Shown: positions 39,469 through 45,446 of the stretch, piece by piece
Layout of the letters: each line of letters starts with the position of its first letter
Position numbering within the stretch: the stretch's first letter is position 1
Assembly (NCBI GenBank): GCA_018056955.1
Contig: JAGPEQ010000001.1
Location: forward strand, 63,773 to 127,772
Reading direction: 5' to 3'
Source of the DNA: Bacteroidales bacterium
Lineage (GTDB): Bacteria > Bacteroidota > Bacteroidia > Bacteroidales > Tenuifilaceae
Length of the DNA: 64,000 bases
The notes under the pieces: generated by a model
Seen by the model: only the letters and a program-made list of their open reading frames with translations
Database searches by the model: none
What the model was told of the DNA's origin: nothing
Position numbers and translations under genes: made by a program

Positions 39469-39849
39469 TTACTCTTGACCTGGAATAACTTCTTTGCTTT
39501 CCATTCCTAGCATATTGCAGTAACCTGTAAACTTGCAACCGGGTTCAATAGCTAGTTTACCTACAGTAATATCGCCATTTATCCGAGCCGATGATTTGAG
39601 CGATAATAGCTCATCGACAGTGATTTTACCCTCAACAACACCTGAAATATCTGAGTTTTTGCAAACCAACTCACCTTTTATTTTACCGGTTTCACCAACA
39701 ACAACTTTGCCTTTAACATTGAGGTTACCAACCAGAATGCCATCAATACGCAAATCGCCACTACTTTTAATATCGCCATTGATTTCAGTGCCAAATCCAA
39801 CCAGGTTGATGTTGTTAGCATTAAATTCGGGTTCATTTATTTTTGCCAT
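39469..39849 (-). CDS. Bactofilin (polymer-forming cytoskeletal protein)
   Basis: A 126-residue bactofilin. The core is a right-handed beta-helix with repeated hydrophobic/glycine pattern (IKSSGDLRIDGILVGNLNVK, GKVVVGETGKIKGELVCKNS, ITVDELLSLKSSARINGDIT) and short polar ends. Bactofilins form nucleotide-free filaments that place cell-wall enzymes. It lies five bases before the AtpI-like gene, an unusual neighbour for the ATP synthase operon. Confidence 0.92.
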   Translation of the reverse strand: MAKINEPEFNANNINLVGFGTEINGDIKSSGDLRIDGILVGNLNVKGKVVVGETGKIKGELVCKNSDISGVVEGKITVDELLSLKSSARINGDITVGKLAIEPGCKFTGYCNMLGMESKEVIPGQE

Positions 39850-39894: not shown

Positions 39895-40575
39895 TTAAAG
39901 TTTTTCCTTATCGCTTTCGTCAAAAATTTCACTTTCCCAATATTCTGAAGTTTCTTCAGCATCATCAGCAGTTTCGCTCATCCAGCTCCAGGTTTGTGGA
40001 GGAGGTCCTTGCCTTCGGTAAACAAAAGCGAGTATTGCACCTGTTATTCCTCCAAATAAATGGTATTCCCACGAAATTTGAGGGAATATTGGTAGTACGC
40101 CCCAAACCAAGCCTCCATAAAGAAAAACAACCAAAAGCGATATTGCCATCAGGTTTATGTTCTTGCGAAAAACTCCACTAAAAAAGATAAACGATGCAAT
40201 AGCATATATAATACCGCTGGAACCAATATGGTAACTAGTGCGAGCAGCAATCCAAACCATCATTCCGCTTAACAACCAGCTTAGTGAAAGTATTTTATAC
40301 CATAAATCTCTGTAAAAATAAACTAAACCTGCAATTAAAATAAATATTGTTATTGTGTTATTTATTAGATGATTAAAGTCAGAGTGAATTAAAGGAGCGG
40401 TAAATATTCCTATTAAACCTGAAATACTACGGGGTCGAAGGCCTAGCCGATATAACGATGAGCCTTCAATTATCTCCACCAGCTTGACTAGCCAAATCAA
40501 AAGGGTAAACAGAAAAGCAATTTGGAGGCTTATCTTGAATCGAGTTCGTTCAATTTTTAGGATAGCATCACTCAT
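39895..40575 (-). CDS. Rhomboid-family intramembrane serine protease
   Basis: A membrane protein of 226 residues with about six helices. The catalytic Ser is in HIGSSGIIYA and the catalytic His in EYHLFGGITGA; HSDFNHLINN is the conserved L1/TM2 region with His and Asn. A C-terminal acidic tail (ETADDAEETSEYWESEIF) faces the cytoplasm or periplasm. The ATG used overlaps the preceding gene by eight bases; an upstream start is open. Substrates are unknown. Confidence 0.88.
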   Translation of the reverse strand: MSDAILKIERTRFKISLQIAFLFTLLIWLVKLVEIIEGSSLYRLGLRPRSISGLIGIFTAPLIHSDFNHLINNTITIFILIAGLVYFYRDLWYKILSLSWLLSGMMVWIAARTSYHIGSSGIIYAIASFIFFSGVFRKNINLMAISLLVVFLYGGLVWGVLPIFPQISWEYHLFGGITGAILAFVYRRQGPPPQTWSWMSETADDAEETSEYWESEIFDESDKEKL

Positions 40576-41587
40576 TTCTACAGTTATCAATAAATTCTCT
40601 TTTGACAAGCTTAGGATCCGACAGGGTATTGTAAAACATATCGATGTACTCTAAAATATCATTCTTATTCCGAACTGTTAAAAGCGAATCGGCGGTTAAG
40701 AGATTCATTATTTCAGGTTTCTTTTTTATAAAAAAATCAATGGTAAAATTCAATTCTAGCTTTTGGCGACAATTACCTCGATAGTAACGTTCTCTAACAT
40801 TGGTAATTGGAATAATCTCGGGAGGTTTTGTATAGGGGGGGGTCACAAATCCGCAAAAATCAAAATCGTAAGGAACTGGTATAACTGAGGTTAAAGAATC
40901 GTGGTATAATAATTTTATGTTGTGTAGCTTAGGAACTGACCAATCGGTATTGCCAATAAGGTACTGGAACATTGTCATTACGTCAAGAACCGGTCTATAG
41001 GTGGCATTTTGAATAATCCCTTGTGTCTCTATCTCCTTGGTTTTTGTTCGCTTTGCCAGCCATTTTACAGGTTCAATTAAAATTCCATAGGTGATGAAAT
41101 TCTTGTACTTGCCAAACCTATCAAGATATATTAACCTAACTAATCGTACCTTAAAGCTATAGTCCGAAAGTATGTTATAGATACGGTATGCGTAGTACTC
41201 CTTTATTATATGTTGCTGGGCACGTTTGGTGTTCATACAGGGATTAACAAGCTTTATCCTTTGCGATGTGTTAAATATTGGATCGTTAATTTTTTGCGGT
41301 TTAATGGCAAGGGGTGGTATTTTGCAGTTTGATTTATCGCGCCGAAAGATTCCTCGTGTCATGGCTTTGGCAGGGAGCGATACTGAGGTATCAGCATAGA
41401 GATAGTAAATAATAATGTCGTGATAACGAGCGTTTTGGGGATTAACGTCGTAGAATAGTTCTTTTAAATCGCCAATTATTTCTATTTCCAGAATTGATTG
41501 TTCTTCAAATAGATTCCCTTGTGCATATGAACTTATAGTTACGATGCACAAAATAAATATTTGTGTTATTTTCCTAATCCTACTCAT
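40568..41587 (-). CDS. Exported protein, possibly CotH-kinase-like
   Basis: A 339-residue protein with a signal peptide (ITQIFILCIVTISSYAQ). The pattern YLIGNTDWSVPKLHNIKLL followed by VPVPYDFDFCGFV resembles the NxDW...N and YDFD metal/ATP-binding motifs of CotH-type atypical kinases, and an earlier YYAYRIYNILSDYSFKVRLV fits the same group. The match is by eye and the ATP site is not verified. It overlaps the ankyrin-phosphatase gene by four bases and the rhomboid gene by eight, so it is part of the same operon. Confidence 0.65.
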   Translation of the reverse strand: MSRIRKITQIFILCIVTISSYAQGNLFEEQSILEIEIIGDLKELFYDVNPQNARYHDIIIYYLYADTSVSLPAKAMTRGIFRRDKSNCKIPPLAIKPQKINDPIFNTSQRIKLVNPCMNTKRAQQHIIKEYYAYRIYNILSDYSFKVRLVRLIYLDRFGKYKNFITYGILIEPVKWLAKRTKTKEIETQGIIQNATYRPVLDVMTMFQYLIGNTDWSVPKLHNIKLLYHDSLTSVIPVPYDFDFCGFVTPPYTKPPEIIPITNVRERYYRGNCRQKLELNFTIDFFIKKKPEIMNLLTADSLLTVRNKNDILEYIDMFYNTLSDPKLVKREFIDNCRNE

Positions 41588-43221
41588 TTAATTAAGGTGC
41601 ATTGACCATTTATTGAACAACTCCAAAACTTTCGAGTTTCATCAATGAGTAACCCTTGGGGAACAATACCCCTGCGGGCAAAAGGAACATTGATTGGAAA
41701 TAACATTCCACTATAAAGCGGAGCAATACTATCAACTTCAGTATGACCTATAACCATTTGGCTTGCCCCAAATGTTTTTAAAACATAGCTAACTTCACTC
41801 ATAGTTGCTTTAGGTATTGTGGGAGTTTGTAGCAAGTAACCCCTGTACCAAAGTAAACCATATTCAGAAAAAATGAGGTTGAGCTCATTAAGAAAAACAT
41901 CGGGGTCAATTAAAAAAGAATTGTCGGGGTTATACAATTTATCAAGTAGCTGGTTCATTCGTACCAATGGGATATTTTTTTGCGCAAGCTGATACGATAT
42001 TCCGGCATGAACAAAGAGGATGCTATCAATTACTATTCCAGCCTTAAAGTTTCGGACCATAGCACCGGGCCAAACGTTTTTGGAAAAAAGATCTGAATAG
42101 GATATTTTATTTCCGCGTGTTAATATCTGATACTTTTCGTGGATATATCGATTGTCGTTGTTCAATATAATCGTCTCATGGTTTCCCATCAATGTGTAAA
42201 CCCGCCCACCCGATTGTTCAGCTTGCTCAGTTAATCGATAAACCAACCAAAGAACGTCGGTAACGCGTTCGCCCCTATCAACCAAATCGCCAATAAAAAC
42301 TAAATGCCCATCGCCAAAAATCCAGTTTAGATTTTTATCAACTATTGAGTTGTTAACCAGCAACTTTGCTAAACTGTCATATTCACCATGAACATCGCCA
42401 ACTGCAAATATTTTAACCTTTGAATTTATTACCGTCTCATTTTCGGAATACTTACTAGGTTTATTGAAGTTAACGGTGTAATTAATTGAATCAGTAGCAT
42501 AAAAACCTTTAAAGGAAATTACACCATTGGTGGCCCTAAAGGTTTTTGATTTAACAAAAACCTTTGAATTTATACTGTCATTAACCAGGTAAAAGACTCT
42601 GGCTCGGCGTTTACTAATTCTCTCAACATGTGGCCCATCGAAACAGGATGGGTAAATTCCTTTGGAGTAAGCCACCATGTAATCACGGAGAAGGTTAGCC
42701 GCCTCGGTTTTGCCAAATGATAGGGCGTACTCAAGAGAGTTGTAGTTCTGAAAGTTTTGGAAAAAGGGATTTGCCCTAAATCGCATCAATACTTTAAGGG
42801 TGTTTACAGAGCCAACCCTTGCTGCATAAAGTAATGGAGTATTACGTTGAATGTTATAGACATCAACTATTGCTCCGTGGGTCAGCAAGTATTCAGCAAT
42901 AGTATCCTTATCGTATATTGCACACTGAATTAACGGTGACAGTGTGTTTAACACAATATTTACATTGGCGCCTCTATCGACTAAATTCTTTATAAGATTT
43001 AAATTTGAGTTAGAAATTGCGAGGGTTAAAAGTGTGTGCGAATTATTAAAATAGGTTTTATTAATACCATTTACTTTAATTAAACTATCTATCTTACTAA
43101 TGTTGTTTTCATTAATAAAACTTACAACCAAGGAATCATTACTTGTGTTGTCCTGAGCAAAACCATGAACAAATAAAAAGGGGGTAAATACAAGAAGATG
43201 TAATGCTAATTTAAATTTCAT
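41584..43221 (-). CDS. Exported ankyrin-repeat PPP-family phosphatase
   Basis: The protein (545 residues from the chosen start) begins with a signal peptide (KFKLALHLLVFTPFLFVHG). Residues about 60-185 form ankyrin-like repeats (TLLTLAISNSNLNLIKNLVD, NTPLLYAARVGSVNTLKVLM). A metallophosphatase domain follows, with GDVHGEYD (275-282), GDLVDRG (311-317), GNHE (346-349), HAG and a late GHTEV. This is the PPP Ser/Thr phosphatase or Shewanella-like phosphatase set. The start at 43221 leaves five bases after the SpoIIE gene. An exported ankyrin-PPP fusion is uncommon. Confidence 0.85.
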   Translation of the reverse strand: MKFKLALHLLVFTPFLFVHGFAQDNTSNDSLVVSFINENNISKIDSLIKVNGINKTYFNNSHTLLTLAISNSNLNLIKNLVDRGANVNIVLNTLSPLIQCAIYDKDTIAEYLLTHGAIVDVYNIQRNTPLLYAARVGSVNTLKVLMRFRANPFFQNFQNYNSLEYALSFGKTEAANLLRDYMVAYSKGIYPSCFDGPHVERISKRRARVFYLVNDSINSKVFVKSKTFRATNGVISFKGFYATDSINYTVNFNKPSKYSENETVINSKVKIFAVGDVHGEYDSLAKLLVNNSIVDKNLNWIFGDGHLVFIGDLVDRGERVTDVLWLVYRLTEQAEQSGGRVYTLMGNHETIILNNDNRYIHEKYQILTRGNKISYSDLFSKNVWPGAMVRNFKAGIVIDSILFVHAGISYQLAQKNIPLVRMNQLLDKLYNPDNSFLIDPDVFLNELNLIFSEYGLLWYRGYLLQTPTIPKATMSEVSYVLKTFGASQMVIGHTEVDSIAPLYSGMLFPINVPFARRGIVPQGLLIDETRKFWSCSINGQCTLIK

Positions 43222-43226
43222 CTTAT

Positions 43227-45446
43227 TTAAAATTTTATTCCCCAAAGCAATACATCGTCTATTTGCTCATTTCGTTTCATCCATGACAAAAAGGTCTTCT
43301 CAAAATGAGTGCATTTGGAAACACCATCCATACCCGAGGTCAATACGAGTTGTTCCTTAAACCTTGATCGCATGAACTTTTTATGGTTATCGCCACCAAG
43401 CTGATCAAAATACCCATCGGAGGTGAGGTATAACCAATCGCCAGGGGTAAGTTTAATGGATTTAACAGTAAAATTTTTGCTGCTTGCACCAGCCAATTTG
43501 GCTCCAAGTGTTACAAAATCGGGTTTAAGCTCTTGAACATCGCCATTTCGTTGCAGGAATAAAGGAATTAATGCGCTGGTATACTCAAGTAGATAGGTTT
43601 CCTTATCAAACACACATACAGCAATATCCATGCTATCTTTAAGAATCATTTCGTTTTTGGACTTACTAAGTCGTTTAATTAGTTGATCGTCAATGAATGA
43701 AAGAATATCGTCAGTTTTGTAAAGCATGTGTTGGTTTACTGCCTGATTTATTAAATCGATACCAATTATACTCATAAAAGCACCCGGAACGCCATGCCCT
43801 GTGCAATCGGCTAAGGCAAAGAATACTTTATTTCCCTTGGGAAGCATCCAGTAAAAATCGCCGCTAACAATATCTTTAGGACGGCTAAAAATAAAAGTAT
43901 CGGAAAACTGTTTTTTCACAAAACTTATAGGAGGCTGAATGGATTCCTGAATTCGCTCAGCGTATCTAATACTATCGGTAATTTTCTGAATGTAACTTTC
44001 AATAATATTATAGGCTTCTTCCAGGTTTTTGTTCTTTTGTTCAATGAAATCCTTATTTTTTTCAATTTCTTGCTTTTGTTGCTCAATCTCCTGATTTTTC
44101 TCTTCGAGCAACACATTTTTTAGCTCAATTTCCTCAAGCTGCCTTGCAAGCTTTTCGGCAGTTCTTCGCTTATCCCTCAGGGCAAAGTAAATAACCAGCA
44201 ACATGGCCCCGCTAAGCAAAAGCCCAATCAATAGGACATAGGTTTGGATTTTAGTTCTAGTAATTTCCCGTTGCTTTAACTCTTGCTGCTGAAGTAATAG
44301 CTTAATTTCATTCTCTTTCTTTTCTGTCTCGTATAGTGTTTGTATGGTAGATATGTGCCTGCTATTCTTTTCGTTTAAAACGCTATCCTTGTAGCTTGAT
44401 GATAGTTTAAAGTACTCAAGCGCTTTGCTATATTCATTTTGCTTTTGGTAGTAATCCGATAAAACCTCATACGCTTGCTGAAAATGAATTAAACTTTTTA
44501 TTTCCTTGGCAATACTGAGGCATGCAAAAACGTTTTCGTAGGCACTCCTATCATTGTTTAATCCTAACTGGGCTCGGGCTAAGTTAATGTAGCTATCGGC
44601 TATAAACTTTTTATCGTTGAGCTTTTTATCTATTACAAGCGCCTTAGTAAAATAATCTTGAGCCTTTAATGGATTTCCTAAGTAAAGTTCGATTTTACCT
44701 AAAGCATTAAAGTTGATAGATATACCTTTTTGGCTGTTGATTTGGTAATTGATATCAAGCGATTTTGAGTAGTAATCCTTTGCCTTAATAAAATCACCTT
44801 TAAATTCGTAAACCTCGCCAATATTATTAAAGTTCATAGCCTGGCCAAGCAGATTATTTGTTTGCTGGGAGAGGTAGAGGGCTCTCTGAAAGTATTCCAA
44901 GGCTTCATCGTAGCGTCCGTTTAGCGAAAAAATGTTGCCAAGGCTATTGCAGGCCACTGAAATATTGAATGTGTCCTTTATCTCTTCGGCCAACTTTAAG
45001 GCTTTTAGATGATACTCAGAGGCATAAGCGTGGTTATCGAGCCGGCGATAAACCACTCCAAGGTTATTGAGCGATTTTGCCTGTTGATGTTTATCGTCGA
45101 TTTCTCTTGCAAGATCTAACGCATCGTTATGAAACTTTAATGCATTTGCGTAGTTTGAAATGTTTCGGTATAGCACACCAAGCGAGGTATATACCTCCAT
45201 TCGGAGGTAATTGCTTTTTATTGATTCCGCCAAGCGTTTAGCCTCAAGTAGGTAATTTTCTGCTAGAACAGGGTTGTTCTCATTTACTTCATAAACCCTG
45301 GCTATTTTTTGTAGAATGAGTACGCGCAAGCTGTCGTTCGATTCTTGGTATAGTTGAAGCAGCAGTGAGTCGGCATTCTGCGGCTGTGCAACCAAATGCA
45401 TACACAGAATGGCATAAACTGGCAATAATATCTTTTTAAACATCAT
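43227..45446 (-). CDS. TPR-repeat SpoIIE-type (PP2C) phosphatase, membrane-bound
   Basis: A 739-residue sensor phosphatase. Order: signal peptide (1-21), tetratricopeptide repeats (about 30-350) in the periplasm, one helix (about 402-423), a Glu/Lys/Gln-rich coiled coil (425-490), and a cytoplasmic SpoIIE/PP2C domain (500-739). The catalytic region carries IVSGDFYW, ADCTGHGVPGAFMS and a late LTSDGYFDQ. In Bacteroidota such proteins often act on anti-anti-sigma factors or regulators in partner switching. It is first in the minus-strand run. Confidence 0.92.
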   Translation of the reverse strand: MMFKKILLPVYAILCMHLVAQPQNADSLLLQLYQESNDSLRVLILQKIARVYEVNENNPVLAENYLLEAKRLAESIKSNYLRMEVYTSLGVLYRNISNYANALKFHNDALDLAREIDDKHQQAKSLNNLGVVYRRLDNHAYASEYHLKALKLAEEIKDTFNISVACNSLGNIFSLNGRYDEALEYFQRALYLSQQTNNLLGQAMNFNNIGEVYEFKGDFIKAKDYYSKSLDINYQINSQKGISINFNALGKIELYLGNPLKAQDYFTKALVIDKKLNDKKFIADSYINLARAQLGLNNDRSAYENVFACLSIAKEIKSLIHFQQAYEVLSDYYQKQNEYSKALEYFKLSSSYKDSVLNEKNSRHISTIQTLYETEKKENEIKLLLQQQELKQREITRTKIQTYVLLIGLLLSGAMLLVIYFALRDKRRTAEKLARQLEEIELKNVLLEEKNQEIEQQKQEIEKNKDFIEQKNKNLEEAYNIIESYIQKITDSIRYAERIQESIQPPISFVKKQFSDTFIFSRPKDIVSGDFYWMLPKGNKVFFALADCTGHGVPGAFMSIIGIDLINQAVNQHMLYKTDDILSFIDDQLIKRLSKSKNEMILKDSMDIAVCVFDKETYLLEYTSALIPLFLQRNGDVQELKPDFVTLGAKLAGASSKNFTVKSIKLTPGDWLYLTSDGYFDQLGGDNHKKFMRSRFKEQLVLTSGMDGVSKCTHFEKTFLSWMKRNEQIDDVLLWGIKF

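Follow-up and report, generated by a model that had tools for sequence, protein, structure and literature searches.

We propose that two neighbouring genes of the window (the whole stretch of 64,000 nucleotides that was analysed) encode an antagonistic exported pair, a CotH-superfamily kinase and a PPP phosphatase, which would reversibly phosphorylate envelope or secreted targets. We put the probability of this reading at roughly 55%. It builds on the computed fold of the CotH-like protein, its conserved catalytic residues, the export signals of both proteins and the recurrent pairing of their genes. This pairing, which reaches across distantly related Bacteroidota, suggests an undescribed on/off phosphorylation switch outside the cytoplasm. 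We infer kinase activity for the CotH-like enzyme, directed at an exported molecule that is most likely a protein, and phosphatase activity for its partner, which would take the phosphate off the same molecule. The ankyrin arm of the phosphatase may hold either the substrate or the kinase.

Both genes are located on the minus strand. The phosphatase gene (545 aa, 41584..43221, ATG at 43221, stop ending at 41584) and the CotH-like gene (339 aa, 40568..41587, ATG at 41587) share the sequence ATGA (41584..41587, minus strand), which contains the stop of the former and the start of the latter. The four-base overlap reported by the first-pass annotation was thereby found exactly where it had been placed. 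Upstream, a gene for a TPR protein with a SpoIIE-type PP2C phosphatase (43227..45446, minus strand) ends five bases before the phosphatase ATG. Downstream lies a rhomboid gene (39895..40575, minus strand; PF01694, E = 1e-12), whose possible start ATG at 40575 gives an 8-base overlap with the 3' end of the CotH-like ORF. Because the four genes are packed so tightly, we regard them as one operon, to which the two outer genes probably belong. The same gene order is retained in a same-species and a same-genus genome (L034 and L036) and, with one extra gene and the TPR-type gene included, in a genome from a different family (L053). The rhomboid gene adjoins the CotH-like gene in these three and in L055. 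Additionally, a short, putative bactofilin-like ORF (39469-39849; judged by its repeats to be of the polymer-forming cytoskeletal type) is positioned between the rhomboid gene on one side and the ATP synthase operon on the other.

The phosphatase consists of a signal peptide (about residues 1-22), ankyrin repeats (about residues 60-182; PF12796, E = 1.6e-14) and a Shelph-type PPP domain (about residues 268-511; Metallophos PF00149, E = 1.5e-13). The PPP motif set GDxHG, GDxxDRG, GNHE, HxG and GH is complete, in the form of GDVHG (275), GDLVDRG (311), GNHE (346), HAG (405) and GHT (492), which bears out the initial description of a phosphatase that combines ankyrin repeats with all PPP motifs. 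The metal ligands D276, H278, D312, N347, H405 and H493 were identical in all 36 paired homologues. The ankyrin arm occurs in some two thirds of these homologues, the remainder having a short N-terminus.

The closest solved relatives are PPP phosphatases from Shewanella (E = 1.9e-46 over the 244 residues 268-511). Three Shewanella-type entries headed the ranking of solved structures (E = 1e-46), and no PPP domain of another type was present among the best 60 matches listed. Shewanella-type PPPs make up the Shelph group, and bacterial-like PPPs possess a C-terminal motif, (I/L/V)D(S/T)G (PMC535813). This motif is absent from the window phosphatase, which reads PINVPF there; in most homologues the sequence is (I/V/M)D(V/I)P, and in the Shewanella enzyme AVD. 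Because the C-terminal motif is altered, we prefer the safer name Shelph-like to strict membership of the Shelph group.

The CotH-like protein of the window yielded no meaningful match in Pfam, in NCBIfam or among PDB sequences (phmmer). Its relatives form a family of at least 577 confirmed stretches; within the same order the gene was detected in 44 of 295 genomes, and named Bacteroidota, Gemmatimonadota and Balneolota genomes supplied further relatives. When 83 sequences were aligned, 15 matched PF08757 (E < 0.001; best 1.6e-8) and none matched a Pfam family other than CotH. A profile of the family searched against the sequences of solved structures returned zero matches, CotH included, and therefore the fold could not be settled by sequence alone. 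Direct comparison with classical CotH by hhalign gave a sensible register at low probability (12.7, E = 0.0023). A second CotH-like paralogue is encoded in the same genome (L033:5746-6771, contig C129), with no phosphatase neighbour; ABC-2 transporter genes lie upstream of it and a gene for a 579-aa protein without a Pfam match downstream, and this set recurs in a genome of the same genus (L037).

Structure prediction from the single sequence reached a pLDDT of only 30, and we used instead an AlphaFold2 model based on the 83-sequence alignment (pLDDT 91.7, pTM 0.89), in which the kinase fold spans about residues 30-334, following a signal peptide at about residues 1-22. CotH leads the solved structures: the best match was Bacillus cereus CotH (5jda; VIA-align Z = 19.3 over 267 residues at 3.4 Å; Foldseek E-values to this CotH of 2e-9 to 4e-9), and the next families, HipT and CtkA, reached Z = 12.6 in a ranking made among Foldseek's own candidates. 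Thus the resemblance to CotH kinases that was originally suspected is invisible to Pfam, NCBIfam and phmmer for the window protein, yet is upheld by its relatives and by the predicted structure. The refuting outcome that the first-pass annotation had named, a predicted fold other than CotH, did not arise.

The catalytic stretch of the CotH-like protein (40859..40945, minus strand) comprises D215, N223 and D241-F-D243, and D215, N223, D241 and D243 are invariant in the 83 sequences, as are R78, G79, R82, C88, K112, C117, E130, Y134, E172, R180, Y252, R267 and F318. In the alignment, D215, N223 and D241 fall on the catalytic stretch of CotH, with D215 in the register of D228 and D241-F-D243 in that of D251. 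The CotH mutants D228Q and D251A are inactive (PMC7821199), and equivalents of PKA D166, N171 and D184 are kept in CotH (PMC12189002), which the invariant residues of the family match. The nucleotide-binding residues of the N-lobe are a different matter and count against our reading: the KKSF stretch of CotH aligns to a part of the family without a conserved lysine, and K112, although invariant in the family, stands opposite an Asn of CotH. Since a CotH-like fold is predicted and the catalytic residues are kept, sequences and model together indicate that the protein is a divergent member of the CotH superfamily with an intact catalytic core and not an obvious pseudokinase.

The fold neighbourhood also includes the lipid kinases PI4K and PI3K (Z of about 11 to 12). 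The kinase-like enzyme might accordingly act on an exported non-protein substrate (a glycan, a lipid or a small molecule), with the phosphatase trimming the same group, and the position of classical CotH genes beside exopolysaccharide (pel) operons (PMC7112168) points in the same direction. We consider this unlikely, as the protein kinase CotH is clearly the best match (Z = 19.3) and the Shewanella enzymes nearest to the partner are named protein-tyrosine phosphatases.

Both window proteins begin with a typical Sec signal peptide, read from the sequence as MSRIRKITQIFILCIVTISSYA/Q and MKFKLALHLLVFTPFLFVHGFA/Q, and the signal peptide that the first-pass annotation had assigned to the phosphatase is confirmed as a Sec signal ending A/Q. 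Applying a simple rule, we predicted signal peptides for 117 of 126 CotH-like proteins and for 32 of 35 phosphatase homologues. Both proteins would act outside the cytoplasm, most likely in the periplasm or at the outer membrane, although the signals would fit the medium as well. ATP is not expected outside the cytoplasm, and an exported kinase would therefore have no ready phosphate donor, which counts against the reversible phosphorylation that we favour.

To this the genomic context adds evidence for a link between the two genes. Besides the CotH-like gene in 44 of the sampled genomes of the order, the phosphatase was found in 38 (at a threshold of E 1e-30) and both were found in 31, a co-occurrence with a Fisher P-value of about 5e-25 (across the genomes of the order, uncorrected for kinship). 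A hand count from the gene places showed the pair side by side in 23 of these 31 genomes, representing 12 families. Neighbourhood clustering identified the phosphatase as the commonest neighbour of the CotH-like gene (37 of 118 loci), followed by DUF4956 (20 loci). No third recurrent exported gene, which could have been a candidate substrate, emerged from clustering the CotH-like neighbourhoods. Many relatives lack an adjoining phosphatase gene, a point that we count against an antagonistic pair; 78 of 120 CotH-like loci have no PPP, DUF4956 or VTC gene beside them.

Two genes can also become neighbours through chance or inherited linkage, without any common target. The 35 distinct adjacent pairs occur with the CotH-like gene first (18), with the phosphatase first (14) or convergently (3), and in a tree of 125 CotH-like proteins pairing required at least 14 changes of state; pairing is therefore spread over the CotH-like family and not limited to a single clade. 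Adjacency has thus been kept in 12 families despite changed order and strand. As passive linkage would not outlast such rearrangement, we regard mere linkage as very improbable, even though the distances of the two families agree weakly for distant pairs (mirror-tree correlation of 0.21, against 0.86 overall). Because of this weak correlation for distant pairs, the mirror-tree was not used as evidence. In two loci (L056 and L062), one phosphatase gene is flanked by two CotH-like genes, with DUF4956 adjoining, and these paired CotH-like copies sit in different branches of the tree.

The CotH-like gene also has other partners. DUF4956 (PF16316) and VTC (PF09359) adjoin it in some loci, six of which also have the phosphatase (L046, L047, L061, L063, L095 and L121). 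In the window genome, overlapping VTC and DUF4956 genes are located away from the pair (L214:4571-6011, contig C44), and, within the same order, classical CotH genes are close to DUF4956 in several genomes. In another branch, comprising some ten loci, often from Chitinophagaceae (L106:2732-5461, L122, L131, L132, L133, L138, L139, L140, L146 and L151), the CotH-like gene lies directly downstream of a gene from one further cluster, whose tested member (from L106) is the exported alkaline phosphatase PafA (E = 1.5e-174 to 5tj3). In another locus (L078), an alkaline phosphatase of PF00245 is the neighbour. Seven loci (L038, L050, L052, L074, L087, L098 and L112) share a different arrangement: the CotH-like gene is flanked by a TauE/SafE permease and, on its other side, by a single-domain response regulator plus a protein that matches no Pfam family and is about 270 aa long.

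These neighbours would also suit a cluster for the handling of phosphate or polyphosphate, with the phosphatase releasing phosphate from exported phospho-compounds, the CotH-like protein moving it within that pathway, and no reversible signalling: the VTC polyphosphate polymerase and DUF4956 adjoin some members, and PafA and the PF00245 enzyme adjoin others. We find this rather improbable, since VTC and DUF4956 are absent beside most pairs (22 of 37 phosphatase loci) and the ankyrin binding arm on a PPP enzyme points to a protein as its target. For the antagonistic pair that we prefer, the partnership of the CotH-like family with two unrelated phosphatases, PPP and PafA, fits the undoing of kinase work, and the VTC/DUF4956 neighbours of some relatives hint at a phosphate donor linked to polyphosphate. 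A wider and decidedly speculative version would be a widespread reversible switch in the envelope of Bacteroidota and related phyla, in which an exported CotH-type kinase is opposed by a dedicated exported phosphatase (a Shelph-like PPP or, in other lineages, PafA) and exported polyphosphate, the product of VTC with DUF4956, replaces ATP.

Reversible phosphorylation of exported proteins in bacteria is, to our knowledge, hardly known. The conserved pair offers a direct route to the questions of whether phosphate serves bacteria as a switch for exported proteins and what donor stands in for ATP outside the cytoplasm. At the same time, it provides a large family (the 577 or more stretches counted above), most members of which are missed by Pfam and NCBIfam, with a fold and a probable function. 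The idea of a new extracytoplasmic phosphorylation system gained partial support from the CotH fold of the model, the recurrence of the pair across families and the signal peptides common in both protein families; it would not amount to new chemistry, as known kinds of protein are newly combined. We conclude that the observation is real and, because the pair is conserved, stronger than a reading of the sequence alone could tell. Within the searchable literature, we found a description neither of such a paired exported module nor of a Shelph phosphatase gene accompanied by a CotH-like one.

Among known systems, Bacillus CotH (PF08757; 5jd9, 5jda) resembles the window protein in fold, as judged by structure comparison, and in its catalytic residues (D, N, D), and VTC and DUF4956 are companions that classical CotH genes share with the window family. 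Sequence identity between the two proteins is very low (13%), and the window protein stays below Pfam detection, possesses a signal peptide as well as two invariant cysteines, and has its gene paired with a phosphatase gene; for CotH, an opposing phosphatase is not known (PMC7821199). A group of CotH, polyphosphate polymerase and DUF4956 genes beside Gram-positive pel operons is described in PMC7112168, and its CotH-type gene next to VTC and DUF4956 resembles several relatives reported here. The available portion of that paper mentions no phosphatase partner. The VTC and DUF4956 genes of the window genome lie outside the operon, on another contig. The protein-tyrosine phosphatase of Shewanella (2z72/1v73; Shelph) has the same PPP domain with all motifs, but the N-terminal ankyrin arm and the linkage to a kinase-fold gene distinguish the enzymes described here. 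For exported ankyrin repeats, the periplasmic ankyrin protein Bd3460 of Bdellovibrio (PMC4686830) provides a precedent, although it is an endopeptidase inhibitor without a phosphatase domain, unlike the window phosphatase. Finally, cytoplasmic STK-STP operons (PMC12189002) encode a kinase and its opposing phosphatase together, as proposed here; they use other protein families and act in the cytoplasm, whereas both members of the window pair carry export signals.
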